The notes under the pieces: model-generated | Database searches by the model: none | The model's input: the letters and a program-made list of their open reading frames with translations, nothing else | Told to the model about the DNA's origin: nothing | In this document: in pieces, positions 7,678 through 63,287 of the stretch | How the letters are laid out: each line of letters begins with the position of its first letter | How positions within the stretch are numbered: the first letter of the stretch is position 1 | Position numbers and translations under genes: made by a program | Origin: a virus | IMG/VR virus record: IMGVR_UViG_3300009537_000002 | Span: 1-64,000 of that record | Direction: 5' to 3' (one strand) | Length of the DNA stretch: 64,000 nt

Positions 7678-7689
7678 GTCTCTCTAATC

Positions 7690-7902: not shown

Positions 7903-8192
7903 TACCTTTCTCCTGCCGCTGGTGGTGGACCTTGTTGAATTGTCGGTCTTCCTGCACCGACAGTCAAGCCATCCTTCTTCCCGATGGACCATTTATTCGC
8001 AACGTTTCCGCCGCAGTAGACAAAAAGTACTCCAAGCACAGCTGTGATCAGCTCACTGTACAGCTTAACGAAGACTGGGTTGAGACCTGCTACCCCAAAG
8101 CCCGCTAGGAGGACAAAGAGACAGATGATAGACATTCTGTACTTGCGGCCATCGGGAATGCTAGGAGTTTTGATCTTCTTTCTAAAAGCCAT
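7902..8192 (-). CDS. Two-helix membrane protein, holin-like
   Basis: The start at 8192 (MAFRKKIKTPSIPDGRKYR) overlaps the upstream stop as TAATG. Two hydrophobic segments follow a basic N-terminus: about residues 20-38 (MSIICLFVLLAGFGVAG) and 47-66 (ELITAVLGVLFVYCGGN). The polar tail is Gly/Pro-rich. Size (96 aa), topology and charge fit a holin. Neighbours are small membrane or secreted proteins, so a lysis role is plausible. Many small phage membrane proteins look the same, so the call is tentative. Confidence 0.55.
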   Translation of the reverse strand: MAFRKKIKTPSIPDGRKYRMSIICLFVLLAGFGVAGLNPVFVKLYSELITAVLGVLFVYCGGNVANKWSIGKKDGLTVGAGRPTIQQGPPPAAGER

Positions 8193-8551: not shown

Positions 8552-8555
8552 ATCG

Positions 8556-8954: not shown

Positions 8955-8970
8955 CCTATTCAGTCTCCTG

Positions 8971-9723: not shown

Positions 9724-9763
9724 CCACTAATGGTATCATCGAGATCCAATTTGGTCTAGCTAG

Positions 9764-10744
9764 CTATACGATATGCCCCACAGCGGCCAAGTCAGACTGA
9801 AGCATATCATTGACCAAGTCTTTGAATGACGTCTCTGGTTCCCATCCAAGCAGTTTTTTGGCTTTCGAACTGTCACCAAGAAGTACATCAACCTCAGCAG
9901 GTCGATAGAATCTTGGGTCTACCTCAACATATTTGCGGTAGTCGCCGAGTCCGGCATAATCAAATGCAATTGCACAGAACTCTCGAATAGAGTGAGTCTC
10001 TCCAGTAGCCAAAACAAAGTCTTCTGGCTGGTGATAGTTGAGCATTCGATACATACCATCTACATAGTCGCGAGCGTGTCCCCAATCTCGTTTTGAGTCG
10101 AGGTTGCCAAGGTAAAGCTTTTGCTGACGTCCGTCCACGATGTTGGCCACACCCAAAGTAATCTTCCGCGTGACAAAATTGGGGCCGCGCCGAGGAGACT
10201 CATGGTTAAACAGAATACCATTGCAAGCAAACATCTTGTACGCTTCGCGGTAGTTGACCGTAATCCAGAAGCCGTAAAGCTTGGCACACCCATATGGAGA
10301 GCGTGGATAAAACGCTGCAGTCTCATCTGTGAGCGTTTCCCCATCTTGACCTCCGAATAGTTCTGACGTTGACGCCTGATAGAATCTAGTATGTATACCT
10401 GAGTCACGGATTGCCTCCAAGCAGTTAAGTACGCCCAGGCCAGTAGCCTGGAGAGTGTATGTGGGTTGTTTGAATGAGGAGCCTACGTGGGACTGGCTTG
10501 CCAGGTTGTAGAACTCATCGGCCTTTGCTAGCTTGCAAAGTTTGTTGAGACTAGGAGGGTCGAGTAGGTCGCCTTCGATGATCTCTAGGTCTTTCTCGTT
10601 CTCTAGATGTGCTGAGCATCCGAGGTCGTTATTGGATGTACGGCGCTTGAAGCCATACACTTTGTAATCTTTCTCGAGCAGGAGTTCAGCGAGGTATGAA
10701 CCATCTTGGCCGGTGACCCCTGTAACTATTGCTGTCTTCTTCAT
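9764..10744 (-). CDS. gmd: GDP-mannose 4,6-dehydratase
   Basis: This extended short-chain dehydrogenase/reductase converts GDP-mannose to GDP-4-keto-6-deoxymannose, a precursor of fucose, rhamnose, perosamine and related sugars. The NADP site G9-VTG-QDG15 is at the N-terminus. The catalytic set lies in ASTSELFGG (Thr about 126, Glu128) and YGCAK (Tyr151, Lys155). The Gmd-specific region NHESPRRGPNFVTRKIT is intact. At 326 aa it is near family length. The ATG at 10744 overlaps the previous stop as ATGA with GAGG upstream; a TTG six bases earlier is the alternative. No reductase or epimerase gene is in the window to complete a pathway. Confidence 0.93.
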   Translation of the reverse strand: MKKTAIVTGVTGQDGSYLAELLLEKDYKVYGFKRRTSNNDLGCSAHLENEKDLEIIEGDLLDPPSLNKLCKLAKADEFYNLASQSHVGSSFKQPTYTLQATGLGVLNCLEAIRDSGIHTRFYQASTSELFGGQDGETLTDETAAFYPRSPYGCAKLYGFWITVNYREAYKMFACNGILFNHESPRRGPNFVTRKITLGVANIVDGRQQKLYLGNLDSKRDWGHARDYVDGMYRMLNYHQPEDFVLATGETHSIREFCAIAFDYAGLGDYRKYVEVDPRFYRPAEVDVLLGDSSKAKKLLGWEPETSFKDLVNDMLQSDLAAVGHIV

Positions 10745-44980: not shown

Positions 44981-47900
44981 TTACCTCGCAAATAGAGTAT
45001 CATAGAAGTCACCCTGAGTACGACCCACCCAAGCATTTGGCTGATACTTATCGTAAACATCACTGAGCATGAGACCAATACCCTCATCAGCTTCCTTGGC
45101 CCATTTAACAATCTCATCACCAATGCTCTGAACAAATGTACCTTCCGTCTTCTTAATTGGCAATCCTGCCACCATGGCATTGCCACCTTTTACTAGCGGG
45201 CTATATCGGAACGGATGAGCCAGCTGGCTACGAGTGATCAACTTCTTGAAAATAAAGGTACCAATCATACCAAAGGCTGTGTTTGATGTACCTTGAGACA
45301 GAGCGTTCTCAGAGCTGTTGAAGAACATGTTGGCAATCGGGGTAAATGCATAGTTTAATGCAACAGCTCCTGCTCCTGCTACGGATGCTACAGCAGCCAG
45401 TGAACTACCAGCGACTCCTACTGTTGTAGCCAAGTCTCCACTACCAACAGCACTTGTAGCTCCAGCAGCCACTGCACTAGGTGCACCGGTCATCAGGCTG
45501 GGCAGACTAGCGAGTCCCTGTTTTTGTAGAGCATACTCGGCCATCAATCCCATAGCATCACTAGTGCTCAGAGTTGTGTGTTGGTTTACGTGGACTATCA
45601 AGTCTGGTGTGATCTCTGTAATGAAACCTGTGTCTTGGGAAAATCTATGGACCACTTGTTCTACTTCGATAGGACCAAACATGTCAGAGTACTCATCAAA
45701 AACATAGCAAATGTCATGTGGCTTGATACGTGGGTTTCCTACAATGACAATAGAACCACGATAGCTTTCCTTGAGAGTGTTGTATAGAAGACCAACAGCA
45801 TAGCGCTTGGCCATCTCATATCCTACACAGTTAGGATACTGAGCAAAGAGCTCACGGACATCTTCGTCCTTCACAGCAGCATCAGCACGGAGTGTGAATG
45901 TTTGGAGGTCATCGAAGACTAGCTGTGCTGTCTCGTCGCTAACATCGGCCGCATCATCACCATACTGTAGAGTCACTGTGTTGAACACGTTGCCAGATGA
46001 CTCAATATTGTTCATCAAGATGTGCTGAGTGCTAGTCAGGACATGGTAGTTCCTGAATGGCTTGATGAAACCTTGGTCGAGAGCAAAGTTCTTAATCTTC
46101 TTTCTGATCCAGAACTTCCTGGCTTGCTCGTATGGGTCTAGATCTTTTTGAATATCGTCTGTGACCTGCGCAGCAGCAACTCCTGCAATTGCGCCAAGGC
46201 CTGGACCTGCAATTGCAACACCCACTGCCCCAGCTGCCAGTCCCACATTGGACGGTGCTGACTTGTTTGGATCGGTAGCCTTGTCGAGCTCGGTGCGACT
46301 ATCTCTAAGCGTATCGACAGCGTCTTGTACGACCTTCTCAATACCCTCAATCTTATTGTCCTCGTTGAATGAAGGATCTCGAGCAAAGTAAAGCTGGTCG
46401 GGAACACCAAAGAACATTGTCATCCTTGGACCCCACTTACCTTCGTAGGGTACGGGGTAGGCTATGTAGGATGGGTGGCGAAGGGTCATCTCCTGGAAGG
46501 TGTCCCACACCGTGCTGTGGTACAAAGTGTACTTGGCAGTGGAATCGAAGAGGCCCCAGATACCCCTGCCCTTTGGTGCAAAGATGTTGTCGTCCTGGGG
46601 ACTTGGCACAAAGTTCCACTCGTTGCGCAAAGATCCATAAGCCGTGTTGTTGGCCTTACCGCCCTCCCAACGACCAAAATGTACAACCTCTGGGAACGAG
46701 AGCATCTCTTCAAGAATCTTACCAGTACGCCCCGTGCTGGAAAGGAACCCACCGAATGTTTTTACCTCACCATGCTGGTTCTGAACGAGCTCAACGGCGA
46801 AGCTCTGACAGACGATCTGTACCATGTCATCACTTTCACTGAACGCAATGTCAGTGATAACGCCATTCAGTACGGTCTCGAGTTCATCTGGATCGTTGTT
46901 GTATCCTAAACGCAATTGCATCTGCTGACCCGGTTTAAGCATCAATGAAGCAATCGGATTTTCATCGGCCGTGTTGGTAAGCAGAGGATCATTGTAGTCC
47001 TCAGTCACAATACGACCATCTGCTCCTCTAGGATCATCTGGGTCAGCTAGCTCTCTGAATTTACGATTACTGAGCACACCACTAACATTGGTCATACTGA
47101 TGACCGCTAGGTCAACACCAACCTTTCTACTTCTGATTACCTTGATGTCCTTGATTGAACTATAGGAGAAGAAGTCATCAAAACCAAATCGCTTACGCTC
47201 ACCGAGGTCAGATTCAATGAAGTAGAGTCGGAACGTAGGGTATGCACGAAGTAGAGAGTAACCCTGACCATTGTGCATGTCTTTCTCGAGCTGTTCGATG
47301 CTTTTGGTGAAGAGAGACTCGTTTGTTGGATTGAGTCCAACAACAGGACCCTGACACACCCTTGCTTCACCTTTGAGCTTTGCTTCTGGATCAACAAACA
47401 GACCACCCGGATCGATCATACCAAAGTGAAGGTGCGCACCTGTGCTAGCACCGGAACTTCCAACACGACCAATAATTTGACCCTGGGCCACGGACACCGT
47501 ACCCAGGGCTGTCTTAGCATTAGCCAAAGCTGCATACTCACCTTCAAACAACATGTGAGAGTATGTGGTTTTCCAACCACCGTCATGTGCCAGTTCGATA
47601 CTGTTGCCTGAGTTCTTACGAGGCTGTTCGGCCTTGTCGGGATCCCATGGCTCATCACGAATGAAGGTGATATTGCCATCAGCAGCAGCACGGACAGGCA
47701 GGCCCAATGAACCTCCACGAGCAGAGATGTCTATGCCTTTGTGGGGTGTTATTTTCCTTTCAAAGTCACCACTCTGTAGAGCTTCTGCAAAACCCTTTTT
47801 GTCAAAACCATCCTTGTTGTTGAAGAACCCAACAATCTTTCCGGTATCTTTGTTCTTCAGCGCAATGGGGCTGATACGATCCAAATCGAACTTACTTGTC

Positions 47901-50887
47901 ACAACCCTATTATTTGGATCAGTTGGCCAAGTCCAAACAGGTTCCTTGTTAGGGTCTCGTGGCTGTGCAGGTACATATGCTGGTTCACCCTTGAACTCAA
48001 TCGAGTTTGTGCCAAAACGATGTCTGGCTTTGGCATAATGCTTCTCATTTGGAGTCAAAGTGGCACCAGGTCGTGTCTTGAGAACCATGAGACCTGGTGA
48101 ACGAGCTTCACCAAGCACACTGAATGCAGACAGGTCCATCTTGGGAAGGCTAATAGGCTCATCGTGGCGTGCTTCCGTCTGGATACTACATGCCAAGCCA
48201 TTCTCTACGTCGATGAGATCATCATAGTGGAACACGGCCTCGGACGCTTGAATCTGAGCCTTCACAGCCTCTTGTACTTCTTTGCGCTTTGCTTCGTCTT
48301 CATCACTCTCAAACACACTGGCCCAGAAACTTTTGTCGAATTGTGTGTTAGCAGACTCGAGTCTAATTTGATTAGCCAGGGCGGGACCCATCTTAGCCTC
48401 ATATGACTGTTCCACCCATGACTTCTCGGCACCAGCGCGCTGAGTTGCATCTTCTTGCGAAGCCTTGATAGCTTCGATTGCTTTCTGTTGCACCTTGAAC
48501 GGAATGAGGCTATTCACGTCATCAGTGAGTTGATTGTACATATAGAAGTCTGGTTGCAATAGAATGCTGAGCCCTTTCTGCCTGGCACCAAAAACACCAC
48601 GCTTAGCCGCCGTGAGTAATTCTTCAGTGGCCATCCGCATAGCACTCTCGTCTGACGTGCTGAGGATCTGAACAACCTGTCGTAGAGGAAAGTCTGGATA
48701 GCAATCACCACTACTGGCCATGATGTTCTCACTAAGCATCTCTCTCACAAGCTTGAACTGCGGAAGGTGGATGTGGTCAGTAAACGTAATCTTATCCAAG
48801 AAGGCCACAGAGAAGTGCAGCCAGTCCTGAAGAAATTCGTTGATGAAGTTGGCAACACGATTTACCTGGAGCTCCTCCACTGTGTCCACCTGGCTGGTTT
48901 GGATAGCGGCAAGAGTAGCATTCTGCACCTCGGTATCTCCGCGTTGGATCGCCCGGGCAGCAGCAACCGATGCTTGACCCATCTCTCGAGAGTTTTTAAT
49001 GTTTCGAGCTGCATCGCTGCGTGCTTCTTCAAGAGTACTTGGATCAAAGTGCACGCTGGCTCTCAATACTTGAGGAAGAAGAAATCTAATAGCCGGGAAC
49101 AGATCTTCCTGAAGTCGCTGAATACCCGGAGCATCATCGTTATCTAGAGAGAAGAATTCGCTACTAGGAGGTACGAGACTGTCAAATGCATCAAACAACT
49201 CTAGATAGAGGTTGTTGAATTCCTCGGCATATTCTTCACACAGAGTTCTAAATGCCTGGTTCCTGACAGGGTCGTTTGACGTCTTACCTTGTGGAGCATA
49301 CTTGTAGAGACCTACTGTATTTGCGATAGTTTTAAGCGACTCTGCGCTTCGACCGAACTGTCTCTCAAAGGTAAGATTCTTCAACAAGATCTCAGAGACC
49401 ATGTTTCGAATATCTTGTCTAGTCTGCATACGCTGTCCGGGCTGAATGCTCTCCTTTGTATTTGGCTCAATAGGATTGTCGATCAGTTCAAGACTAGCAG
49501 TATAGGTACCAGGCTGGCCTGGTACCGTACCAGTTATCAAAGCATTGGGAATGAAGTGGTGTAACCCACACATGTTGACCAAGCCATTGAACAGGCGAAT
49601 GTTTCTTTGACCCTGTGGGATGACCTTGAATTTGTGTGCCTGGTCTTCCACGGTGTTGTAGAAGCTAGTTAGAGCAGACAAAGAATCTTCGGATGTTGTG
49701 ACAATAGACAGGGTTACTACGCCGTCAACACTGCCGATGTGCTGGAAGGTAGGATATGGATGACCAATGAGAGGAAGTTGTGCCAGCACATTCTCAAAGC
49801 TGATGGTCAGACCAGTAACGATTAATCCACTGGATGGACCATTGAGTGCCAGATAACGAGATCGCTCGAGAAGCATTGTGCTTTCTGGCTCAGCCTGACC
49901 GACCTCTCTTCGTGGGGCTTGAGGCGTATCATTAAATGTAATAGCCTCCCCCTTGTTATTGAACACTGGATACCACACAGCGCGGTCAAGTAGAGAGAAC
50001 CTGTTGTCTGCACCAGGTGCCAAGGTATCATCCAAAATATCGTTGACCTTCTGAACAGTAAGTTTCTCGGGACCCATAGAAGTAATGTGTCCAAACGTTT
50101 CTTCTGCAAGAAGTAATCCGCGCTCACGACCACGCGCTGCCACCAAAGACTTGATTACCTGTGCGTTAGCGCTGGTTCTTTGATCTGACTTCTTGGACAC
50201 ACTGAGCGCAATTTCTTTTTGAAGTTGCTGCAGTGCCTCAAAGTCTCTCTCCAGTTCACGATACTGATCTACTGTAAGAGAAGCGAACTGCTGAAACCTC
50301 ATGCTGATGGCTTTGTCATCGAGCTTCTTGATCTTCTTGTAATCGTTTCGCTGTTGCTCAGCCCTGTACATAGTCTTCCAAGGCAGAGACTCAGCTGGGT
50401 TTGGAGTAGAGATAGCAGAGAAGAAATCCTTCTTGTAGCTCCAGTCCTTCAGAAACGCGTGGTAGTTGAACCACTGGAAAAAGAAGGTAACATCAACAGT
50501 ATTAGTTGAGTCGTTCTCTTTAGAGATGTGGAGCTGTTGCAACGCCAACACCATCTGAGGTTCGGGTGAGCCACCCAACACACTGTTGCGAACGAACTGA
50601 TTCTCTACGTAGCAGAATGGAGTGACACGAAACTGAGATACTAGATTGCGGAGCTGTTCTAGTCCGTTGTCGAGCTTGTTGTGACCGAATGCGCCTCGCG
50701 TAGTAGTCGTAAACTTCGCCGACACCATAATACGAATGGTTGAGAAGCCCGACTTGGACTTGATGGACGACCTAGTACGCAGGGTGTTCCACATGTGATT
50801 GACGGACTTCTTGTCAATCTGGATTTGTTCTGGTGGAATGTTGAGTACGATGTCGTTGATTTGGAAAAATCCATTATCTCCAGGCAT
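44981..50887 (-). CDS. Giant tail hub protein with embedded M23 peptidoglycan peptidase, 1968 aa
   Basis: Residues 1-150 form a beta domain typical of LysM-less tail proteins near the hub (MPGDNGFFQINDIVLNIPPE). Residues 170-900 are mostly helical, with a second similar beta unit at about 345-475. An M23 lysostaphin-type metallopeptidase spans about 985-1170, with zinc ligands H1049-x-x-x-D1053 and H1152-L-H1154, plus H1111. After it, residues about 1210-1500 resemble a gp27/gpD-like hub (GQQMQLRLGYNNDPDELETV...). Ala/Gly-rich segments and a C-terminal domain follow. It would form the tail tip and open peptidoglycan during DNA entry. Start ATG has AAGGGG. Confidence 0.85.
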   Translation of the reverse strand: MPGDNGFFQINDIVLNIPPEQIQIDKKSVNHMWNTLRTRSSIKSKSGFSTIRIMVSAKFTTTTRGAFGHNKLDNGLEQLRNLVSQFRVTPFCYVENQFVRNSVLGGSPEPQMVLALQQLHISKENDSTNTVDVTFFFQWFNYHAFLKDWSYKKDFFSAISTPNPAESLPWKTMYRAEQQRNDYKKIKKLDDKAISMRFQQFASLTVDQYRELERDFEALQQLQKEIALSVSKKSDQRTSANAQVIKSLVAARGRERGLLLAEETFGHITSMGPEKLTVQKVNDILDDTLAPGADNRFSLLDRAVWYPVFNNKGEAITFNDTPQAPRREVGQAEPESTMLLERSRYLALNGPSSGLIVTGLTISFENVLAQLPLIGHPYPTFQHIGSVDGVVTLSIVTTSEDSLSALTSFYNTVEDQAHKFKVIPQGQRNIRLFNGLVNMCGLHHFIPNALITGTVPGQPGTYTASLELIDNPIEPNTKESIQPGQRMQTRQDIRNMVSEILLKNLTFERQFGRSAESLKTIANTVGLYKYAPQGKTSNDPVRNQAFRTLCEEYAEEFNNLYLELFDAFDSLVPPSSEFFSLDNDDAPGIQRLQEDLFPAIRFLLPQVLRASVHFDPSTLEEARSDAARNIKNSREMGQASVAAARAIQRGDTEVQNATLAAIQTSQVDTVEELQVNRVANFINEFLQDWLHFSVAFLDKITFTDHIHLPQFKLVREMLSENIMASSGDCYPDFPLRQVVQILSTSDESAMRMATEELLTAAKRGVFGARQKGLSILLQPDFYMYNQLTDDVNSLIPFKVQQKAIEAIKASQEDATQRAGAEKSWVEQSYEAKMGPALANQIRLESANTQFDKSFWASVFESDEDEAKRKEVQEAVKAQIQASEAVFHYDDLIDVENGLACSIQTEARHDEPISLPKMDLSAFSVLGEARSPGLMVLKTRPGATLTPNEKHYAKARHRFGTNSIEFKGEPAYVPAQPRDPNKEPVWTWPTDPNNRVVTSKFDLDRISPIALKNKDTGKIVGFFNNKDGFDKKGFAEALQSGDFERKITPHKGIDISARGGSLGLPVRAAADGNITFIRDEPWDPDKAEQPRKNSGNSIELAHDGGWKTTYSHMLFEGEYAALANAKTALGTVSVAQGQIIGRVGSSGASTGAHLHFGMIDPGGLFVDPEAKLKGEARVCQGPVVGLNPTNESLFTKSIEQLEKDMHNGQGYSLLRAYPTFRLYFIESDLGERKRFGFDDFFSYSSIKDIKVIRSRKVGVDLAVISMTNVSGVLSNRKFRELADPDDPRGADGRIVTEDYNDPLLTNTADENPIASLMLKPGQQMQLRLGYNNDPDELETVLNGVITDIAFSESDDMVQIVCQSFAVELVQNQHGEVKTFGGFLSSTGRTGKILEEMLSFPEVVHFGRWEGGKANNTAYGSLRNEWNFVPSPQDDNIFAPKGRGIWGLFDSTAKYTLYHSTVWDTFQEMTLRHPSYIAYPVPYEGKWGPRMTMFFGVPDQLYFARDPSFNEDNKIEGIEKVVQDAVDTLRDSRTELDKATDPNKSAPSNVGLAAGAVGVAIAGPGLGAIAGVAAAQVTDDIQKDLDPYEQARKFWIRKKIKNFALDQGFIKPFRNYHVLTSTQHILMNNIESSGNVFNTVTLQYGDDAADVSDETAQLVFDDLQTFTLRADAAVKDEDVRELFAQYPNCVGYEMAKRYAVGLLYNTLKESYRGSIVIVGNPRIKPHDICYVFDEYSDMFGPIEVEQVVHRFSQDTGFITEITPDLIVHVNQHTTLSTSDAMGLMAEYALQKQGLASLPSLMTGAPSAVAAGATSAVGSGDLATTVGVAGSSLAAVASVAGAGAVALNYAFTPIANMFFNSSENALSQGTSNTAFGMIGTFIFKKLITRSQLAHPFRYSPLVKGGNAMVAGLPIKKTEGTFVQSIGDEIVKWAKEADEGIGLMLSDVYDKYQPNAWVGRTQGDFYDTLFAR
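47426..47743 (-). other. M23 peptidase catalytic core within the hub gene
   Basis: This segment encodes residues 1049-1154 of the hub. It holds HKGIDISARGG (His and Asp ligands), TTYSHM (a second-shell or catalytic His) and GAHLHFGM (His ligands). The full set needed for a zinc endopeptidase is present, so the domain is probably active against peptide cross-links of host cell wall. Confidence 0.85.
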
Positions 50888-50902: not shown

Positions 50903-53900
50903 TTACATGAGCTTACTTGCGATCTCGTGTGGCGACAAGCGTGATCTGTTGTCTCTCAAGTTTACACTAGTATTTCTACCCATTCCAGCAAATCCAGATG
51001 CCAGGGCGGTGCCGTCTACACCTGCCGGTGCTCTTGCTGCGACTCGAGCTCCACCTGATGGTGGACTCATTGAGAGTCTAACGTTCTGGTTTCTCATAAC
51101 AAGAGGAGTAGTTGGTGAACCGACATCCTTTGTACCTGGGTGTACATCTTCTGGCCTCATCCTATTGACGGCCTTACGTCGATTCATGTTTAGTCTAGCA
51201 TCTGGGATCTTACCACGACCAGACCCTACTGTCTTTGGGGGGTCAGACAAGATGGCACCCAGCGCCAGTGTACCAGCAAACCCCAGACCGATAGCCTTAT
51301 GGTGACGCAGTAGACCTGCACCCAAAGCGCCCATCTTGTTAGTAGCAGTTGAATATGCAGTGGCCACCTTCTTCATCATACCAGGAGCTTCTTGCATACC
51401 CATGAAGGCTGTTCTTGCAGACAGCTCTGCAATTTCTATCTGCTTAGCACGAGCACCACGACCAGCAAGTAGCTCTGCAGTACGAGTGAATCCTGTGCGG
51501 TCGGCTTCATTGAGTGAACGCATCATCTCTCGAGTCGCAGAGTGCACGTTGATACCTTGAATTTGCTGAGCCATTTTAGTACCAGTAGCACTAGAAATAG
51601 CCTTGGCACCTTCTGCATCTAGATGAACGGTGCCCTGCAACATAGCCTTGGCTACTGTATCGTCTTTGACGATGGTTGCAATATTGCCTTCAAGTGTCTT
51701 GGCATCTCTGCCCTGCATAGCATCTGTGATGCTCATCATGAGACCTTGGAGTCCACCTTCAGCAGCTTCCAAAGCCGACATATGCTTAGCAGAGATAGGA
51801 GCTTGTTCGAGCCACTCCAACAGGAAACGAGCATCACTGGCAGCTGCACCCTGGCCAAACTTGGTGAGCGATCTCTTGGCTGCTGTCATTTCAAGTGACA
51901 GAGGAGCGATCCACTTCTGTCCGACTGACAACTTTTCCACCTCAGCCATCATCTGCTTGAGTGGAATGGTTTCAGCTCCAGTAGCAGCTTTACCAGCCTT
52001 GAAGAGCTGCATCCTTACCTGATGCTGCGTGTATCTGCGAGCGTACTCACTATCCTGTAGCATACTTGCTTTGCGAAGAGCTTCTTCGTTACGAGGACCC
52101 AACAAGAAAGTAGAATAGGCATCAGCGTCCTTGTCACCTGCCAAGCCAACTAATGGACCAAGTGTCAATGTCTTCTCTTCGAAAGCTCCACCTACCTCAG
52201 TGGCTACACGGACGTTCTTGGTTATTTCGGGCAAGACTATGAGATTGGATCGGCCTTCGACCATGCGCATACGAACTGGCTGCATAGAGAATTCACCAAG
52301 CAGCGGGTGGCGTCCTAGCATACCAGCGATCTCTCCACCTTTTTCAAACCTGGTCCTCATCGCCTCGAGTGCTTCAATGTCTCCCTTATAGAGACCTGTC
52401 TCAACCATTTCATTCCACATGCCAAGGAAATTCTCCCTGGTGATACCAACAACATTAGCTTCACGGATGGCAGTGGCTGCACCACCCACTCGCTGTGCAG
52501 AGACACCGCGAAGAAAACGAGAGCCTAGAACCTTACCACGTGCAACAGCACCAATGCCTTTGCCAGCAGGCACAAATTCTCTACGTAGTATGTCTCTTTG
52601 GAACCCTAACTGGCGGGTGAGTTCTTCTTGAGAGATCAATCCTTCCTCTGCTTGGCCCACCTTGGCAGCGATGTCACCATAGATTTCAGACAACCGACCT
52701 CGTGAGGTGACACCTGCATGTGTTTCATAGGGACGTAACTGAGTCATAATGTCCATTCCTGGAACATAGATTTCCTGACCAGCTCCTCGGATGACACCAC
52801 CACCGCGTTCTAGAAACTTCTGGAAGTTTTCGCCCTGTCTAAAGATAGCCGCACCAGCAGGAGCAGCAGTACCTGACATAGTAGCAAGAGTCTTCTGTAG
52901 CTCCTGGTGCGCAATGAGAGTTTCAGGAGAGGTAGCAGCCAGACGCTGCATGAGTTCTTCACTGACGTCTCCACCTGCTGTACCCAAAGCACCACCCTTA
53001 AGAATGTCGAACACACGAGGTTCAACAGAGCCAAGCCCACCGACATCCAACATTGGACCGCCATAAGCAAACTCTGGCAGACCCATCGCAGTGCCACGTT
53101 GAAGTGCCTCTTCAAAAGTACCAAGCGCCTTACCACGCAATCCAGCACGAGCCAACATTGCAGACACAACACCACGTCCACCTTTTTCAGCTGTACCACC
53201 CATAACATATGGAACAGCACCAAATGCTTCACCAAACTCACGCTCTGTGACGTCCATCATGCCAACAGCAAATTGCATTGCTCTTTCAGTAAACCTTCTG
53301 TGACTGAATGCTCCACCTTTGAATGCTTGAGCAGCAAACGCTTCACCTGGTGCTGCCATGAATCGTGCTTGAGCTCGAGTGAACGGAGCTCCGCGGCGCT
53401 CAAGAATCCCTTGAAGTGAGTCAACCATCTGTCTACGATGGAGAGCTCGATTTTTTCTGAGTTCATCCATGCTGATAATGATGTCTACATTACGATCATG
53501 AATACCAAGTTGTCTGAGTGCACCACCAAAAGCCTGTTCTTCTCTAAAGAGAGCTAGGGCTTTAGCACCACCAAACAACTTGCCGCCATGAGCAAACTGG
53601 TGACGGCGAAGAATTTCTACAGAGACCTCTTCACCAGCAGCACGACGAACACCAGTGATAGCGGCACCCTCAGGTAAAGTGAATGGCTTGCCTTCAGGAG
53701 TGAGGCCGAGTACTTCTCCTCCTCTGATACCTCCACCAGCAATGTCTTCCCGAGCTCGAATAAGCTTCTGAGTCACAGATTCTTCGAAGATCATCTTGTC
53801 GCCTGTGCGAGCTCGAAACAAGGTTTCACCTTCGCCCATGGCCTGTTGTTGCATAAAGCTTTGTTCACCAATCATTAGCCTTGGATCTACATAAGCAGCC

Positions 53901-55294
53901 TTGAGTTTTGGACGGACAGCATTGGAGTAGGCCAAGGCCTCACCTTCAGCTTGGACGGCACGATAGTATCCACTACCTTTCTGACCAAGAGCCTTCATGC
54001 TCTCTTCTGCGATTTGGAATTCACGAAAGATCTGTTCTGGACGACGTGAATAGTCTACGGGACCAAGGGCATAGCGTTCCCATTCTGCCGTTGACAACAT
54101 GCCTTCGGCTAAACCTTTCGGGCCTACACCACCACGAAGACCCAACTCTCTACCAGCGGCAGATCCCATAGCAACACGGATCTCATCGTCGGTCATTGCG
54201 CGGAAACCTGGACGATACTCGGCTCCACCTCTGCGAACACCCACAGGTGCGACCATCTCAACGGCCATCCCACGAAGTGCTTCACGTTGAGCCTGAGCAG
54301 CGGTGCGACTTTCGAGTATGTTGGCAGGAGTAGTTTCCAGTTCTCCAAAGATCCTTCCTCTCAGCTGCTTAATCGCACGCTCTACATCGCCTTGTGTTTT
54401 GAGTCGTCCACCAATTTCAGGAGCGATACCACGCTCAAGCTCCTGGAGAAACATTTCAGTACGACCGATACGCTGGAGTTTTCCTCCTTCGCCCATAACT
54501 ACAAAGTCTGGAGCGATACGACGTGTCTGTAGTGCCATGCCTTCAGCTATCATCCCACCTGATACCTGAGGCAATTGCACACGAACATCGCCAACACGAG
54601 TGCCTTCAAAGATCACGTTCCAGGCTCCCAACCCCTCACCTGCAAGTTCAGGCCGTGTGATACCGAACATCTGTCGGCCAGTTCCACCCATAGCTGCTTG
54701 AACACGTTCGATGCCAGACATGAAAGGAGCAGGGATAGGAGTAGCCATTGCGATAGTTGCCTTTGGAGACAAACCTTGAATCTGGTTCACTCCCACAAAG
54801 TTGGGTAGACCAAATTGTGTGGCTTGGGCAGTGAGTGTTCCAACGTTTCTTTCGAAGCGCTGCCAAATACGACCTGCAGCTACAGAGGTTTGACCAGCCA
54901 TTGTGGCCGAGATTGCCGAGCGAGCTTCCGCTGGGGTCATGTTCATGATGCCTTCGGTAAGACCCAGCATCTGCTTTCTTGTGAACGGATCGACAGACTG
55001 AGTTGCCCACGCCCAGGCTCTACGTTGAACATCGGTCCTGCTGTACTGCATGAATCGATTGACGTCTTCGATGCTAGGGATAGGTGGGCCGCGGCGTGAT
55101 GCCTGCCTGCCAAGAGTACGCATGGCCTGGTCAATGCCAGCCTCGCGTGGTTGTTTCAGTGATCCTTCAACGTGGATACCTTTCAATGCAGCAGCAATAC
55201 CCACAGTGAGAGGAGTAGCAGCAATAGCAGTTCTGAGTAGACTACCACCGCTACGATCCGGAAACTGAGGATCGCTATCTCTACGTTCAGCCAT
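50903..55294 (-). CDS. Putative single-chain two-barrel RNA polymerase, probably virion-associated, 1463 aa
   Basis: By eye, two catalytic signatures of multisubunit-type RNA polymerases occur in order. A beta-type motif, VSVEILRRHQFAHGGKLF then GGAK, has Lys572 and Lys578, compared with GDKMAGRHGNKG in bacterial beta. NVDIIISMDELRKNRALHRR at 602-621 follows, compared with VDIVLNPLGVPSRM. A beta-prime-type motif has LGRHPLLGEFSMQ (993-1005) and MVEGR, then GPLVGLAGDKDAD (1046-1058), compared with LNRAPTLHRLGIQ, LIEGK and HPLVCAAYNADFDGD. Asp1054, 1056 and 1058 would be the metal-binding triad. The N-terminus is Ala/Gly-rich with a hydrophobic stretch. The gene lies between the tape-measure-like and hub genes, so the enzyme may be packaged and injected. 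Main alternative: a tape-measure or ejection protein with chance motif similarity. Confidence 0.68.
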   Translation of the reverse strand: MAERRDSDPQFPDRSGGSLLRTAIAATPLTVGIAAALKGIHVEGSLKQPREAGIDQAMRTLGRQASRRGPPIPSIEDVNRFMQYSRTDVQRRAWAWATQSVDPFTRKQMLGLTEGIMNMTPAEARSAISATMAGQTSVAAGRIWQRFERNVGTLTAQATQFGLPNFVGVNQIQGLSPKATIAMATPIPAPFMSGIERVQAAMGGTGRQMFGITRPELAGEGLGAWNVIFEGTRVGDVRVQLPQVSGGMIAEGMALQTRRIAPDFVVMGEGGKLQRIGRTEMFLQELERGIAPEIGGRLKTQGDVERAIKQLRGRIFGELETTPANILESRTAAQAQREALRGMAVEMVAPVGVRRGGAEYRPGFRAMTDDEIRVAMGSAAGRELGLRGGVGPKGLAEGMLSTAEWERYALGPVDYSRRPEQIFREFQIAEESMKALGQKGSGYYRAVQAEGEALAYSNAVRPKLKAAYVDPRLMIGEQSFMQQQAMGEGETLFRARTGDKMIFEESVTQKLIRAREDIAGGGIRGGEVLGLTPEGKPFTLPEGAAITGVRRAAGEEVSVEILRRHQFAHGGKLFGGAKALALFREEQAFGGALRQLGIHDRNVDIIISMDELRKNRALHRRQMVDSLQGILERRGAPFTRAQARFMAAPGEAFAAQAFKGGAFSHRRFTERAMQFAVGMMDVTEREFGEAFGAVPYVMGGTAEKGGRGVVSAMLARAGLRGKALGTFEEALQRGTAMGLPEFAYGGPMLDVGGLGSVEPRVFDILKGGALGTAGGDVSEELMQRLAATSPETLIAHQELQKTLATMSGTAAPAGAAIFRQGENFQKFLERGGGVIRGAGQEIYVPGMDIMTQLRPYETHAGVTSRGRLSEIYGDIAAKVGQAEEGLISQEELTRQLGFQRDILRREFVPAGKGIGAVARGKVLGSRFLRGVSAQRVGGAATAIREANVVGITRENFLGMWNEMVETGLYKGDIEALEAMRTRFEKGGEIAGMLGRHPLLGEFSMQPVRMRMVEGRSNLIVLPEITKNVRVATEVGGAFEEKTLTLGPLVGLAGDKDADAYSTFLLGPRNEEALRKASMLQDSEYARRYTQHQVRMQLFKAGKAATGAETIPLKQMMAEVEKLSVGQKWIAPLSLEMTAAKRSLTKFGQGAAASDARFLLEWLEQAPISAKHMSALEAAEGGLQGLMMSITDAMQGRDAKTLEGNIATIVKDDTVAKAMLQGTVHLDAEGAKAISSATGTKMAQQIQGINVHSATREMMRSLNEADRTGFTRTAELLAGRGARAKQIEIAELSARTAFMGMQEAPGMMKKVATAYSTATNKMGALGAGLLRHHKAIGLGFAGTLALGAILSDPPKTVGSGRGKIPDARLNMNRRKAVNRMRPEDVHPGTKDVGSPTTPLVMRNQNVRLSMSPPSGGARVAARAPAGVDGTALASGFAGMGRNTSVNLRDNRSRLSPHEIASKLM
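52121..52315 (-). other. Beta-prime-type double-psi barrel signature (R-x-P ... D-x-D-x-D)
   Basis: The segment encodes residues 994-1058. RHPLLGEFSM aligns with the R-x-P-x-L-H element. After an extra insert of roughly 22 residues, GPLVGLAGDKDAD aligns with HPLVCAAYNADFDGD. The three aspartates are encoded at 52133-52135, 52127-52129 and 52121-52123. Confidence 0.68.
53429..53629 (-). other. Beta-type double-psi barrel signature in the putative RNA polymerase
   Basis: The segment encodes residues 556-622. It contains the lysine pair K572 and K578 (codons at 53579-53581 and 53561-53563), then NVDIII followed by a basic helix. In bacterial beta the two lysines are eight residues apart rather than six, and about 22 residues separate the second lysine from the VDIVLN aspartate, against 26 here. 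Confidence 0.6.
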
Positions 55295-58200
55295 TATACC
55301 AATCCGTCTAGAGCAGCATCATAGTCGACGTCTTGCTCAATGTCGATATCAACACCAGGGAAGTTCCTGTGGAACACACTGGCCCGAGCTCCTTGTGGAA
55401 TTAGGAGTTCATCTATTCTATCCTGCATTTCTCCTGGACTCAATTGCTCTGGGTTCATCAGAGGAGCAATAGCGGACTCGTTGATGAATGGTTTGTTCAC
55501 CAACGCTTGTGCACGCGAAGGCCACAGGTCAAAGTCATGCATGTCTTCACCCATACTCTGCACCACCTTAAGCTTCACATCTTCCAGGTCAACAGACGGA
55601 TGCCATCCTACCCAGTCATCACCAGGCAACGGTACTTCAGAGAGCAGCTTAGTTCTACGGTACCAGTCTCCATAGTTCTCACCAGGTAGCTTGGTCGCTA
55701 CATACTCAGCAAACAACTCTTCGTTGTTTGGGAAACCTTCTGATCGAGCTTCATCTCTGATTTGTTCCAGAATGATATCTGCCTCAGCGATCTGGTCTTC
55801 TGACAATAGTCCAGCCTTCTCTGCTTTCTCTACATCCTGTTTGAACTGTAGCTTCCAGCGAGCAATGTAGAGAGCCTTCTCATTGTCAGGAACGAGCTCG
55901 AGGATCTTTGATCTCTCTTCCACAGTATCAGCTGCAGCAAATGAATTGAAGTAGTCTCGCTCACGTCTGGGGAGAGAACGGAAGATGTGAGAGAAGTTGT
56001 ATGTGAATGGATTGAGGCCAAACAACGTCTCGTTCTTCTTAGCTTCAAACTCTTTCACGGCAGCAGTGTCACCGCTCATCCTAGCCAGGTTCGAAAGTCT
56101 TGCTTGCTTTGTGTATTCTAGGACATCAAAGTACTGCTCGAGACCACGTCTTTCCTTGATGTGTTCGGGAATGGAATCGAAGCCCATCGACTCACCTACC
56201 TTGGTAAGGAACGGACGGATGAAGTCACGCATTGGATGTGACCAGAACGCGTTCTCCGTACCATAGATCTGACTGTTCTCATAGTCTTCAATTGCTGTTC
56301 GTTGGTGAATGAGTTTGGCTGCGGGTGATACTGGCGTGAGGACATCCAAAGATGTCTCAGCGTTGTGAGCTAACATTTCCCAGTAGCCACCAAAGAACTT
56401 GGCAAAGACACCCTGCTCTGGTTTTTCTGACGCCTTGATCCTATTGAGTTCTGCTAGTACTCCTTTTGATTCATCCTTGTAGTAAGCTCCTTCATCGTCT
56501 ATGTCCCCAGTAGGACTCAGGTATTCGTATTCTGCGAACCTTCTCTTGATCTTCCTTTCCTTGAGTTGAGCTTCGGTCATCTTGTAGATGCCTTCCTCAT
56601 ACTCGCTCCAAGTCTCTAATTTCCTTTGGCTTCTGATGCTCTGCAGCATGGACTTGTACTTGTCACTGTACGGAGCCACATCAGCGAGGATCTTGTACCT
56701 GTGGATATCAGGGTAGTCTTCAGGTTTGAAGTTCTGGAGCTCTGGGAAGCGGGCTGCATAACCGGCCCCTGGGAGCCGTAGCTCGCCCTCCTGGACCTTT
56801 GTATAGGGATCTCCATGAAGGAAGTCAGGAGACTTCTCTCCGGGCCCTGGGAGCCACTCAGGCATCATGTTTCTAATTGGGTTGTACAGAGGGATCTGAC
56901 GCCTTCTGTGAGGGTACAAACGCCTCAAAGCCTCTGTGGTTCCCAGTCCACCACCGATTTCAAGGTCCCAATAGTCTCTCTCAGTGCCAAAAGCACGTCG
57001 AGCGGACTCCAAACGCATGGTTTGGTCGAAAAAGTCAGCAGATCCAGTCAGTGCTTCCTTGATAGAAGAGATGGTGAAACCTGGAAGACCGATCATTTCA
57101 GTCATTCTGTAGGCTTGTTCACCTGCTGTTCCTGTCAGATTGAAGGGGGTTTCAGCACGTCCAGGTGGAAGCTCTCCCAGTTCAGCTGCACGGCGCTCGC
57201 CAAAGCCAGGAGCCATGGCCAATTGTTCGCCACCAGGCCCCATCCACTCCTCAGTGTGCATCAAGACAGGTGGCTTGATGAGCCTACCAATCGTGTTGGC
57301 GAGAAGAGGTCCGATAAATGGAACATCTTCAAATGGGAGACTGGTGATAGGGTATGGTCGTTCTTCGTAGAACTCTCTCTCGAGATCATACGTGAACTCT
57401 TGTCTCCACCACTGTTGTAATGGAGTCGGCGGCTTGTCTCCCCAAATGGAGACTTCTTTTGACCTCTGTTGCATACGGGCATACCAGTGAGGTCTGTAGT
57501 ACATGATTCGGTTGCCTTCCCATGGTGTGCGACCAAACTCCCACCATCTACCCTTTCTGATTGGTACTTCCTGTTGACCAGAGTAGATGCGTTCGAGCTC
57601 GTCTGGCCTAGTGGAAGGAACCAGTGCACCAGGTAGGAAAGGAGCAATAAGTGCTAACCCGAGGCCTGCACCAGCGAGACCAGCCAGCTTGGTGGGTCCC
57701 ATCTTGCCAACGAATGGATAAGCCTTATCTCCAAAGAGCCGACCAAAACGGCCCATCAGTCCCTCGGTGCCAAACTTAGTGATTTGCTCAGATGCCAGTG
57801 TACGTGCAGCAGCAGGACCAATGCCCTTCGCATATTGCAATTGAGCCATCTTGCCTACTTGTGCTGCGTAGGAGATGCCAGCCGCGCCGAAGGCACCCAT
57901 AATTGGGAATGCTAGAAGTCGAGATAGGTCGGTGCTACCAGGGGCTAGTCTTTCTTGTGCTTCACGGTATGCGTGAAGACCAGTAACTTCGGCCACGCTA
58001 GAGGCTAACTGATTAGCACCAGTCCAAATCGAAGCAAGTCCCGCAGTGAGTCCTTGGTTTAAAACAGTTTCATCAAAGACACTGGCCTCACGGAACATGT
58101 AGTCGAGTGATTGATAACCAAGAGCAAGTCCACCAGCTACAGCACCATACTTCCAAGCCAAACGGCCCAGCATTTGAGTGCCCGAACCATATGGGACAGC

Positions 58201-59094
58201 CAGTTGAATCCTTCTGCCGGTCAGGTTGTACAGCAGATCTTGAGCTCCACCGAACACCGTTCTAAACGGCTGCATTTCGAATGGTGCTTCAAGCAGTCGA
58301 TTGAAACGAGAAACAAACTCAGTGCCAATGGCGCCAAGCTGTCTACCTGCATAACCCCACGGTGTTTGCGCTCCAATGATTTGACGATGGAACTTGCCTG
58401 TTGCTAGACCAAGTTCTTCTCCAAACATACGAGCGTCGCCAGCTGCCATACCGAAACGAGCTCCAGTGCCAAAGCCCATTGAACGTGCATAGCCTGAGCC
58501 AAGATGTTTACCAGCAATAGAACCTAAGTATGACTCGCTCTCTCTCAGGACAGGATCAGAAATAGGACTGATCATCGCACCTGCATAGCGCAGAGCAACG
58601 TCACCGGTCTGACCAAAGTAGAGACTGCCACCACGGAATGTTACACCTTCTTTGAGTACTCGAGCATGAGTACCTGGTGCATCACCTGTTAGCTGAGCAA
58701 GGTATCTTGCATATCCACGACCTGCATCAGAACGAAGAAATGTTCCGGCAACAGAGAAGCCTTGTCGTGCCTGAGTGGTGAACTGAGAGAAGAAAGTAGA
58801 AGCCTGGAAGGTACGAAACACACCACCCGGTGAGTACTCTTCGATAGCACGTAGACCACCAACATAGTAATCCCACATCCTCCTACCACCACCGACTGGG
58901 ATGAAACCGCCTGCCAGTATTCCACCAGCAACAGCTCCAGCAGTCAGCATGCCAGATGTTGGATGTGCCTCCTCATAGAAACCACTCGGTGGGCGGTTGG
59001 TCCACACATCTGGTTGCTGACGCGGATCACCCATGGATGGCCCATAATAGGCACGTGTATCCGTGAGGCTAAATCTGTTGGGGTACCTTGGCAC
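55294..59094 (-). CDS. Tape-measure-like/ejection protein, 1266 aa
   Basis: The start is a GTG at 59094 overlapping the preceding stop as TAGTG; no clear ribosome site is seen. The N-terminal half is Ala/Gly-rich with hydrophobic segments (LTAGAVAGGILAGGFIPVGG, LAGLAGAGLGLALIAPFLPG), as expected for tape-measure or pore-forming proteins. The middle is Trp/Tyr/Pro-rich (RWWEFGRTPWEGNRIMYYRP, PFIGPLLANTIGRLIKPP). The C-terminal third is charged and helical. Position right after the chaperone-like pair is the standard tape-measure position. The rest of that function may lie in the next gene. No enzymatic motif was found. Confidence 0.7.
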   Translation of the reverse strand: MPRYPNRFSLTDTRAYYGPSMGDPRQQPDVWTNRPPSGFYEEAHPTSGMLTAGAVAGGILAGGFIPVGGGRRMWDYYVGGLRAIEEYSPGGVFRTFQASTFFSQFTTQARQGFSVAGTFLRSDAGRGYARYLAQLTGDAPGTHARVLKEGVTFRGGSLYFGQTGDVALRYAGAMISPISDPVLRESESYLGSIAGKHLGSGYARSMGFGTGARFGMAAGDARMFGEELGLATGKFHRQIIGAQTPWGYAGRQLGAIGTEFVSRFNRLLEAPFEMQPFRTVFGGAQDLLYNLTGRRIQLAVPYGSGTQMLGRLAWKYGAVAGGLALGYQSLDYMFREASVFDETVLNQGLTAGLASIWTGANQLASSVAEVTGLHAYREAQERLAPGSTDLSRLLAFPIMGAFGAAGISYAAQVGKMAQLQYAKGIGPAAARTLASEQITKFGTEGLMGRFGRLFGDKAYPFVGKMGPTKLAGLAGAGLGLALIAPFLPGALVPSTRPDELERIYSGQQEVPIRKGRWWEFGRTPWEGNRIMYYRPHWYARMQQRSKEVSIWGDKPPTPLQQWWRQEFTYDLEREFYEERPYPITSLPFEDVPFIGPLLANTIGRLIKPPVLMHTEEWMGPGGEQLAMAPGFGERRAAELGELPPGRAETPFNLTGTAGEQAYRMTEMIGLPGFTISSIKEALTGSADFFDQTMRLESARRAFGTERDYWDLEIGGGLGTTEALRRLYPHRRRQIPLYNPIRNMMPEWLPGPGEKSPDFLHGDPYTKVQEGELRLPGAGYAARFPELQNFKPEDYPDIHRYKILADVAPYSDKYKSMLQSIRSQRKLETWSEYEEGIYKMTEAQLKERKIKRRFAEYEYLSPTGDIDDEGAYYKDESKGVLAELNRIKASEKPEQGVFAKFFGGYWEMLAHNAETSLDVLTPVSPAAKLIHQRTAIEDYENSQIYGTENAFWSHPMRDFIRPFLTKVGESMGFDSIPEHIKERRGLEQYFDVLEYTKQARLSNLARMSGDTAAVKEFEAKKNETLFGLNPFTYNFSHIFRSLPRRERDYFNSFAAADTVEERSKILELVPDNEKALYIARWKLQFKQDVEKAEKAGLLSEDQIAEADIILEQIRDEARSEGFPNNEELFAEYVATKLPGENYGDWYRRTKLLSEVPLPGDDWVGWHPSVDLEDVKLKVVQSMGEDMHDFDLWPSRAQALVNKPFINESAIAPLMNPEQLSPGEMQDRIDELLIPQGARASVFHRNFPGVDIDIEQDVDYDAALDGLV

Positions 59095-60631: not shown

Positions 60632-60670
60632 TTAGATCAATGTTCTTGCTATGAATGTATATTGCTCCTG
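60632..60670 (-). repeat. Copy 1 of duplicated gene end (QEQYTFIARTLI-stop), end of HNH gene
   Basis: These 13 codons encode the same 12 residues plus stop as 61204-61242. I count eight base differences over 39 positions, all synonymous. By position this may be the original end of the tail gene, now fused to the HNH reading frame. Confidence 0.85.
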
Positions 60671-61204
60671 AAGCCTTTGTAGATCAAGGAAGTTATTGCT
60701 AACTTCCTGTTCATAGCTAGTCTTGCCAATATGACAACTTTTACACAATAGTTGGCAATTGTCGATACTTCCTGTTCCGCCAATACATACAGGAATGATG
60801 TGATCAAATTCGCCTTTTTGAAAGAGGCCTTCACGGCAAATATTACACTTGTCTTCCTGGCCAAGCCTAACTGCTTTCATTGCGATTGCGCTAAACCTGT
60901 TTTTTCGATGCTTGATTTGAGACCTATCAGCAACATATCTAGGGTGGTTCTTGCCAGAGGCTCTAAAAATGGCTGGATCATTTTTATTGAACTGGTGGCG
61001 ATAAGGACCACTAGCGATGTTTTCGATATTCTTTTTTTGAATTTTCTCTAGGTACTCAGAGTGTTTATAGAGTCCGAGTCTCCTCGCTTTGATTCTAGTG
61101 GCAGGTAGAGAACGATTTAAGGTCTTAGCAACAACACTGTCAGAAGTCGTAGGAAAAATACATTTGAGAGTTTCGATTTCAAAATCCGTCCATTTAGAAG
61201 CCAT
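60632..61204 (-). CDS. Free-standing HNH homing endonuclease
   Basis: The 190-aa protein has an N-terminal helix-turn-helix-like region (KWTDFEIETLKCIFPTTSDS, then SLPATRIKARRLGL) and an HNH zinc-bound core. Cys120-x2-Cys123, D134-H135 in GEFDHIIPVC, Asn149, and Cys154-x2-Cys157-His158 are all present. The last 12 residues (QEQYTFIARTLI) are identical to the end of the upstream tail gene but encoded by different synonymous codons. The gene looks more A+T-rich than its neighbours and sits inside the tail operon with TAATG overlap. It is a mobile insertion that leaves both flanking genes intact. Confidence 0.9.
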   Translation of the reverse strand: MASKWTDFEIETLKCIFPTTSDSVVAKTLNRSLPATRIKARRLGLYKHSEYLEKIQKKNIENIASGPYRHQFNKNDPAIFRASGKNHPRYVADRSQIKHRKNRFSAIAMKAVRLGQEDKCNICREGLFQKGEFDHIIPVCIGGTGSIDNCQLLCKSCHIGKTSYEQEVSNNFLDLQRLQEQYTFIARTLI

Positions 61205-61242
61205 TAGATTAGTGTCCTGGCAATGAAGGTGTATTGTTCCTG
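61204..61242 (-). repeat. Copy 2 of duplicated gene end (QEQYTFIARTLI-stop), end of tail gene
   Basis: This copy ends the 284-aa tail gene. Its codons differ from copy 1 at GAA/GAG, TAC/TAT, ACC/ACA, ATT/ATA, GCC/GCA, AGG/AGA and CTA/TTG. The stop and the next bases (TAATGG) are shared. Confidence 0.85.
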
Positions 61243-62058
61243 GATAGGAAGTCCGTCAATCTGTATTTGCTTAGACTTACCAAGGATATAGACATTCCTA
61301 ATACGTTCGATCGTATGGTTGGCGTAGTCGTCACCGGCAAAATCACCAAAGGTTACGTACAAGTCGAATGGGTTGAGCCTATTGTCGTCCGCCCGGCGAT
61401 CTTCTTGATCTAGCTGGGCTGGACTCTTTCTCCAAAGGGCGTTTTCAAAGGCTTCAAAGCGATTCTCTGCGCGTCCAACAGATCTCTCTTCTGGATCTGT
61501 AGCAGCACGGAACCTCTGAGTAGAGGCAAAACCACCCAAGTTGGCACCAAGAGAATTAGCAGCAAAGAAGTCTCGGAAGTCTTCCTCGATCCTAGCCTGT
61601 TGATCTCCTTCTTGTTGCCTACGTGCCAAGTCTAGGAGGAACTGGTTTCGTTCAAATACAGATGTTTCACCATTGACGATCTGTTCGATGTTCTGTCTCT
61701 CAGCATCACCAGGTCGGCCGCCCACGTCTTTGACATTGTCAAATGGACCCTGGGTCCTAGCAGTCAGAGATGTCTTGTTGCGATGAAGTTTTCGATAGCG
61801 ATCCAAGATTAACCACAGGTAGCCAGCTTCTTTGAAGTTGACTGTGAACGTGCCGGTAACCAAGATGTGACCTTCGGATACATCGTCGAACAAAGTAGAA
61901 GCATACCCGTAGATTGGAGAACGAGATTGCGTGTATCCGTACGCCAAGGTGGTGACTTCATCTACCCAGACGTCACCAATGTATAGTGATACCTGAGCAC
62001 CAGAGAAGTACTCAACGTTATAGACACCACGACGTACTACATTTGCTTCCTGTCCCAT
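61204..62058 (-). CDS. Tail-tube-like structural protein, 284 aa
   Basis: The protein shares a pattern with the two upstream genes: an early glycine-rich strand pair (GYTQSRSPIYGYASTLFDDV, then ILVTGTFTVNFKEAGYLWLI) and a final segment IQIDGLPIQEQYTFIARTLI like SEQQMTYVARTLIG in the gene at 63340. The central 110 residues are a helical, Arg-rich insert (LARRQQEGDQQARIEEDFRD). It probably forms a tube, completion or connector part of the tail. Its 3' end is duplicated in the following HNH gene. The start overlaps the upstream stop as TAATG. Confidence 0.65.
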   Translation of the reverse strand: MGQEANVVRRGVYNVEYFSGAQVSLYIGDVWVDEVTTLAYGYTQSRSPIYGYASTLFDDVSEGHILVTGTFTVNFKEAGYLWLILDRYRKLHRNKTSLTARTQGPFDNVKDVGGRPGDAERQNIEQIVNGETSVFERNQFLLDLARRQQEGDQQARIEEDFRDFFAANSLGANLGGFASTQRFRAATDPEERSVGRAENRFEAFENALWRKSPAQLDQEDRRADDNRLNPFDLYVTFGDFAGDDYANHTIERIRNVYILGKSKQIQIDGLPIQEQYTFIARTLI

Positions 62059-63287
62059 TATCTATTCGTTAGCCTCCTGCGAACTCCCAGTCTAAGCAGG
62101 TGTTCGTTGTACGCATCATTGTCGAACAACAGACTAGAACCAGTGAGGTCTTTGTCATCCTTGTCGTTGAACATGCCACGCTGCAAGCGACTAAGTCTGA
62201 ATCTACCACGAGATGTCATGATGTCAGCATCGCGACACACATAGTTCATTGTTCCTTCCGACAATAGGTCCTCAATAGAGAACACCTTACCGTCAGTGAC
62301 AAACTCAACTCCGTAGAGTCTCAAGTCAGACAAAGCACCATATTCATTGGCAAAGACTAGGGTAAGATCGATTGGAGGTAGCTGGTCAGGAAGGAATGTA
62401 GATAGTTCGGCATCACGTTCTCCATAGGTTCTCGAGTTGCCCATGCGGCGAATCAGATCAGCCAGAGCGTGCTCGTTGAAGATAGTAAAGATCATTGACC
62501 CACCAATGGTACGGGTGCCGCGTGTATATCCCTTGGCATATGAATGCCCAAGGGCCCTAACAGCATTCTTTTCTCGGAAGCTTTGTAGGGAGATAGTTTG
62601 TAGAGTACCCAACACTACCGTGTCACTAGATCGACCATCTCCCGCCGCGCCGATACGCTCAAGATTGTCGATCCTGTCTGTGAACTCAGTAACCTTGGCT
62701 CCGTAGAGTTGTCTGAGAGTGAAGGCTTGGCGCTTCATTCTGGCTGTACCGATAAAGCTAATATTCCCGCCCTTCAGAATGTTGCCGATCAACAGGTTCA
62801 CAGCCTTATCGTTCTCTGCGCCACCAGGAAATGGAAGTCCCGTTGCAGCAATAAAGAGCTCTCGTCTCTGTGCATAGTCTGACACAAGAGAAGGATCACC
62901 GAACCCTTGCTGCTGTGCCAGGCCATCTAAACCACCGTTGATGAGATTGTCACACCCATCTACTACCAACTGAGCCTCTGAGCGCTGTGAGTTCAACTGC
63001 TCAAGCTTCTCTTCTAACCAATTATTGCTATCATAGAGGTGTGCAACAACCTTGAGGTCAACACCCGAGAAGGATGAACTCAGGAAGTTGATACTGGCCT
63101 CAGCGCCTTGCTGGGCAGGTAACGTTTTGAAAGCTTCGTCGACAGCTAGCCTAGTCTCTGCCAATTCGAAAATAGCAGGATCATCTAGGTCAATTCTGTT
63201 TTCTGCATTGCCAGGTCCTGGCGTAATCGGCTTTCTAGCAACGACCCGCTCACCAGATCTACTGGTTCTACGAATGTTAGCAGTCAT
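62058..63287 (-). CDS. Tail-tube-like structural protein, 409 aa
   Basis: The N-terminal 60 residues are hydrophilic and Arg-rich. FSGVDLKVVAHL near residue 75 matches FSGVDIKGV in the upstream gene. A helical region leads to the shared core: ALGHSYAKGYTRGTRTIGGS, MIFTIFNEHALADLIRRM, then NEYGALSDLRLYGVEFVTDG and FSIEDLLSEGTMNYVCRDAD. This core recurs in the neighbouring genes and resembles phage tube-type subunits with an M/L-x-x-YG-x-x-F-x-x-x-G turn. It is preceded by a terminator, so it may be expressed below the upstream gene. Ribosome site is AGGAAC. Confidence 0.65.
   Translation of the reverse strand: MTANIRRTSRSGERVVARKPITPGPGNAENRIDLDDPAIFELAETRLAVDEAFKTLPAQQGAEASINFLSSSFSGVDLKVVAHLYDSNNWLEEKLEQLNSQRSEAQLVVDGCDNLINGGLDGLAQQQGFGDPSLVSDYAQRRELFIAATGLPFPGGAENDKAVNLLIGNILKGGNISFIGTARMKRQAFTLRQLYGAKVTEFTDRIDNLERIGAAGDGRSSDTVVLGTLQTISLQSFREKNAVRALGHSYAKGYTRGTRTIGGSMIFTIFNEHALADLIRRMGNSRTYGERDAELSTFLPDQLPPIDLTLVFANEYGALSDLRLYGVEFVTDGKVFSIEDLLSEGTMNYVCRDADIMTSRGRFRLSRLQRGMFNDKDDKDLTGSSLLFDNDAYNEHLLRLGVRRRLTNR

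Follow-up and report, generated by a model that had tools for sequence, protein, structure and literature searches.

The stretch of DNA analysed here (the window) is the first 64,000 nucleotides of a virus record of 103,635 bases (103.6 kb). The 1463-residue open reading frame that a preliminary description had reported at 50903-55294 is real and intact, and it lies on the minus strand; translation of the plus strand is full of stops. Its product, P0001, is flanked by two other large proteins:

55294..59094, minus strand: P0002, the upstream neighbour, 1266 aa with hydrophobic segments, a candidate tape-measure or pore protein.
50903..55294, minus strand: P0001, 1463 aa, a putative single-chain two-barrel RNA polymerase (open reading frame, translation, AlphaFold2 and Foldseek results, match to the beta-prime profile).
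44981..50887, minus strand: P0003, the downstream neighbour, 1968 aa, a baseplate hub that contains an M23 peptidase and has related hubs in Acinetobacter phage ME3, Bacillus phage KLEB27-3 and Moorella phage MTATph1.

The start codon of P0001 overlaps the stop codon of P0002, for which a family search gave no match, and the order of pore-like protein, P0001 and hub is retained in the relatives checked. A tail sheath gene is found just outside the window, and downstream there is a baseplate wedge gene; therefore, the tail is contractile. The placement of P0001 had been likened to that of a tape measure, and this holds: the site between a membrane-segment protein and a baseplate hub is the tape-measure position of the 0305phi8-36/ME3 lineage. 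The tail/structural block also contains an HNH endonuclease-like gene (window 60632-61204, minus strand), possibly a homing gene. Two adjacent genes near the tail sheath (window 61204-62058 and 62058-63287, minus strand) both match phrog_9206, the PHROG called 'major head protein'; instead of capsid proteins they may encode tail-tube paralogs.

What kind of protein is encoded at this position? Comparison of P0001 with Pfam, PHROG and the PDB by sequence, in single and profile searches, gave no useful match. With P0001 alone as query, nothing was found in viral contigs and the phage collection, and no relatives were found in GTDB genomes. Relatives were reached via the neighbouring hub gene, followed by profile and motif-pattern scans, and 10 diverse full-length proteins (21-50% identical) were identified in IMG/VR. 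A second motif scan gave one true, partial relative with the motif GDFDFD (L043); two further candidates that it produced, L041 and L044, matched by chance and were dropped. The alignment discussed below comprises 11 proteins, complete or almost complete in length, that are 21-50% identical to P0001. The elements of P0001 that bear on its identity are the following:

51335..54097, minus strand: residues 400-1320, the modelled polymerase region (AlphaFold2 and PDB fold matches).
53561..53581, minus strand: lysine pair K572..K578 (KLFGGAK), candidate beta-type catalytic lysines at a spacing of 6, invariant in the 11 proteins and presumed to belong to a beta-type barrel.
51980..52609, minus strand: residues 896-1105, the beta-prime-type double-psi barrel region (hhalign match and isolated AlphaFold2 model).
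52517..52540, minus strand: residues 919-926, R-G-K-V-L-G-S-R, a conserved core element in the first barrel half, with R919, G924 and S925 invariant.
52280..52312, minus strand: residues 995-1005 (RHPLLGEFSMQ), an R-x-P-x-L/I-x5-Q element.
52121..52135, minus strand: residues 1054-1058, a catalytic-type D-K-D-A-D, its aspartates invariant in the 11 aligned proteins.
51782..51823, minus strand: residues 1158-1171, L-L-E-W-L-E-Q-x-P-I-S-x-K-H, highly conserved, a candidate bridge-helix or trigger-loop element.

The motifs on which the preliminary description had based a polymerase reading are in place: K572 and K578 with the VDIII segment that follows them, R995, P997 and L999 of R-x-P-x-L (995-999), and D1054, D1056 and D1058 within PLVGLAGDKDAD. 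Two of the differences that it had listed are also real. The lysines are 6 residues apart, compared with 8 in E. coli beta (GDKMAGRHGNKG), and an insert before the aspartates extends the distance from the arginine to the first aspartate to 59 residues, compared with 35 in E. coli beta-prime; this distance ranges from 53 to 89 among the aligned proteins. By contrast, the supposed 'G-K/R linker' near residue 920 is a conserved R-G-x..x-G-S element, which aligns not with a linker but with the beginning of the barrel in beta-prime (LLGKRVDYSGRS); residues 919-926 align with NLLGKRVDYSGRS of beta-prime. In E. coli beta-prime, R425 and Q435 precede NADFDGD and have the same spacing as the arginine and glutamine of the 995-1005 element.

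Across the alignment, 53 of the 1463 positions of P0001 are invariant, and these include K572, K578, R919, R995, P997, G1000, S1003, Q1005, D1054, D1056 and D1058. The two lysines and three aspartates, whose conservation in homologs had been proposed as a check, are therefore all in the invariant set. Only three of the 45 aspartates are invariant, namely D1054, D1056 and D1058, and five of the 56 lysines, K572 and K578 among them. Of the eight motif residues named, only L999 varies (isoleucine elsewhere) and the other seven are invariant; a residue-type-matched hypergeometric calculation for the seven gives ~3e-9, a value that is only indicative because chemistry guided the choice of residues and the sequences have a common ancestry. 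The canonical DxDGD is present in five of the 11 aligned proteins (exactly GDFDGD in one), and the canonical motifs seen among the relatives of P0001 are GDFDGD, GDTDGD and GDVDGD; the residue in the last spacer position is variable (DKDAD, DFDFD). The pattern R.P.[LI].{5}Q...D.D.D occurs in all 11 aligned proteins, in 2 of 20,000 shuffles of P0001 and in 1 of the 342 open frames of the window.

Has the polymerase fold been kept while catalysis was lost, leaving a structural tape-measure or ejection protein? The variable last spacer residue would fit such a history, as would the location of P0001 in the position held by orf146 in the 0305phi8-36 lineage (PMC2147016). This alternative is nevertheless unlikely, given that the sole invariant aspartates are the catalytic ones and that neither lysine changes among strongly diverged relatives. 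Moreover, gp66 of crAss-like phages, a proven polymerase, also lacks the last glycine (DFDID).

Profile comparison points to a specific subunit. In hhalign, the profile of residues 896-1105 matched the bacterial beta-prime profile with E=2e-4 and a score of 33.5, compared with 27.9 for the best of 40 column-shuffled profiles. When segments of 210 residues were slid past the beta-prime profile, the score peaked at 32.6 for residues 911-1120, and the two best segments, starting at 911 and 981, both contain the motif; 42 control segments from two neighbouring gene families scored 19.3 or less. At a low threshold, the alignment to beta-prime extends over KTLTLGPLVGLA--GDKDAD.

The structure prediction called for in the preliminary description gave a fairly confident model. 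For residues 400-1320, AlphaFold2 with 11 sequences reached a mean pLDDT of 76.2 and a pTM of 0.73, and the PDB matches listed by Foldseek are to beta/Rpb2 and beta-prime chains of RNA polymerases; the viral matches include viral RNA polymerases and two proteins of phage ME3, and one BFVD match is labelled RNA dependent RNA polymerase. Residues 896-1105 modelled in isolation reached a pLDDT of 76.0, and every one of the 50 PDB matches listed is to an RNA polymerase of bacteria or plastids (E from 1e-4), on the beta-prime side as judged by chain letter and length; 61 PDB matches have E<=0.001. The Foldseek TM-scores are low, at 0.13-0.17 for the large model and 0.36-0.41 for the barrel, with an rmsd of 6-10 A or worse. 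Profile and predicted structure together show residues ~905-1080 of P0001 to be a beta-prime-like double-psi barrel. That P0001 is instead an unrelated tail protein with chance motifs is scarcely credible: it has no match among curated families, but the profile, fold and conservation tests are concordant, and coincidence is refuted as far as computation can do so.

The case for a second, beta-type barrel consists of the invariant lysines and the beta/Rpb2 fold matches of the larger model; the lysine spacing is 6 and not 8, and the profile of the lysine region gave no hhalign signal to bacterial beta. Because residues 896-1105 alone find beta-prime, the beta matches of the 400-1320 model most likely come from another part of it, which would support the second barrel indirectly. 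A beta-like lysine barrel is thus suggested by the model, with weaker support than its partner. A specific match of K572/K578 to the lysines of crAss gp66 was considered and dropped. Residues 1158-1171 form a helix and then a loop in the AlphaFold2 model and contain invariant residues.

The conservation of the motifs, the beta-prime profile match and the polymerase fold matches support the two-barrel RNA polymerase reading, which is therefore taken to be right: P0001 is likely to be a highly diverged, single-chain, two-barrel DNA-dependent RNA polymerase carried in the contractile phage tail. The two-barrel superfamily also includes QDE-1/RdRP and PolD (PMC10770324, PMC7824862), and the BFVD label mentioned above would suit an enzyme that copies a different template or makes a different product, for example an RNA-dependent RNA polymerase, a PolD-like DNA polymerase or an enzyme resembling a primase. 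Such an activity is very improbable, as the PDB matches are subunits of DNA-dependent RNA polymerases and the phage encodes its own primase-helicase (window 4147-6765).

How does P0001 compare with known polymerases? In Thermus phage P23-45, the RNA polymerase gp96 forms one polypeptide with the tape measure, has been shown in virions and transcribes the first-entering genes (PMC10770324). Like P0001, gp96 is the single-chain product of a tail-module gene and has an R-x-P and DxDxD barrel, recognised by the same motif logic; DFDGD is shared by one relative of P0001. P0001 does not have the gp96-type layout, in which the polymerase domain is N-terminal on a giant tape-measure protein with M23; its 1463 residues form a protein of their own, the membrane-segment protein and the M23 hub are encoded by separate genes next to it, and the phage has a contractile tail. 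The gp66 protein of crAss-like phage phi14:2 (Phi14:2_gp077) is also a single chain with a non-canonical last spacer residue, and it is a structural virion protein, whereas the presence of P0001 in virions is presumed by analogy. It differs from P0001 in its larger size and gene neighbourhood, and there is no profile match between them.

With hhalign, sequence kinship of the P0001 family was not detected to gp96 (E=0.05, catalytic sites unaligned) or to gp66 (E=0.17). These comparisons are uninformative, because gp66 and gp96, both proven phage RNA polymerases, barely find each other in the same test (E=0.024). A specific kinship to crAss gp66 thus finds no backing. In profile-profile comparison, the kind of check that the preliminary description had proposed, beta-prime was matched, but there was no signal from the lysine region to beta, nor any to gp66.

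The YonO/QDE-1-type RNA polymerases, including orf99 of 0305phi8-36 (PMC2147016, PMC7824862), resemble P0001 in having two barrels on one chain. Unlike P0001, orf99 is a separate right-arm gene; a search of the 103.6-kb record, which may be incomplete, for a second polymerase found no Pfam RdRP match and no other convincing DxDxD. The virion RNA polymerases of phiKZ-like phages are packaged two-barrel enzymes for early genes but have several subunits, compared with the one chain of P0001. The N4 virion RNA polymerase is giant and injected but belongs to the unrelated T7-type family (palm/RRM fold).

In 0305phi8-36, orf146, the ORF directly before the hub, owes the name tape measure chiefly to its length; it can be aligned with its counterpart in a relative over no more than its last 60 residues (PMC2147016). 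ME3_36 and KLEB27-3 gp034 occupy the same position as orf146. ME3_36 carries REP..GGDHDQD, and the fold search supports it as a candidate homolog of P0001, the fold match being equated with ME3_36 on length. KLEB27-3 gp034 (L006:3061-10365; 2434 aa, annotated as 'structural protein') carries RYPTIN..KADYDGD, with a sub-threshold Pfam Rpb1_2 match (E=0.015) over this motif; it is a candidate tail-module RNA polymerase. MTATph1 CDS0027 (L005:3961-7890) belongs to the tail module and contains an exonuclease domain (RNase_T, E=5.4e-5); it shows a weak match to KLEB27-3 gp034, in the N-terminal part of the latter.

A second two-barrel RNA polymerase gene seems to be present near the end of the ME3 genome (L056, record 217000-234900; ~5117-9850, minus strand), interrupted by a group I intron (Rfam RF00028, E=5.7e-11). 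The sequence of ME3_309 closes with VRNPS, the next open frame (ME3_307 region) has SDVDGDH, and ME3_308, between them, resembles a homing endonuclease. In P0010 (L003:834-5714), a homolog of P0002, there is an in-frame intein-like insert at residues ~1185-1540 with a LAGLIDADG domain; LAGLIDADG_3 is above the Pfam cut-off and Intein_splicing just under it (E=1.3e-8).

The fold, the conserved catalytic residues and the tail-gene location together make a tail-carried, injected polymerase probable. The phage would thus probably carry its own transcription enzyme in the tail and inject it with the DNA, as judged from gene position and from P23-45 gp96 and crAss gp66; P0001 would most likely work like gp96. 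The beta-like barrel would contribute K572/K578, and the beta-prime-like barrel (~905-1080) R995 and the Mg2+-binding D1054/D1056/D1058, with the two barrels presumably facing each other for RNA synthesis. Placed in the tail with the pore/tape-measure-like protein on one side and the hub on the other, P0001 would exit with the DNA and transcribe the first-entering genes before host or newly made polymerase is available. Alternatively, P0001 might be an active RNA polymerase that is unpackaged and works late from a newly made pool, since its packaging rests on analogy. This is rather improbable: the gene sits in a structural block, flanked by those of the pore-like protein and the hub; the KLEB27-3 protein at the syntenic position carries a structural annotation; and ME3 has its apparent second, intron-split polymerase besides the tail-module protein.

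The open-access papers covered by the search contain no description of the P0001 family. The family appears to represent unreported tail-encoded, cellular-type RNA polymerases in phages without a recognised one. A 2021 survey of 224 jumbo phages reported an own RNA polymerase only in one group and two further phages (PMC7824862); ME3_36 together with ME3_309/ME3_307 suggests otherwise. It may even be, although this is a tentative and somewhat doubtful extension, that the tape-measure-position protein of the whole 0305phi8-36/ME3 lineage is an ancient, fast-diverging virion RNA polymerase that forms part of the DNA-injection apparatus. The cultured relatives ME3 and KLEB27-3 make the reading of P0001 testable. 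Taken with P23-45, P0001 suggests that a tail-borne polymerase coupling DNA entry to transcription evolved, or survived, well beyond the crAss-like and Thermus phages.
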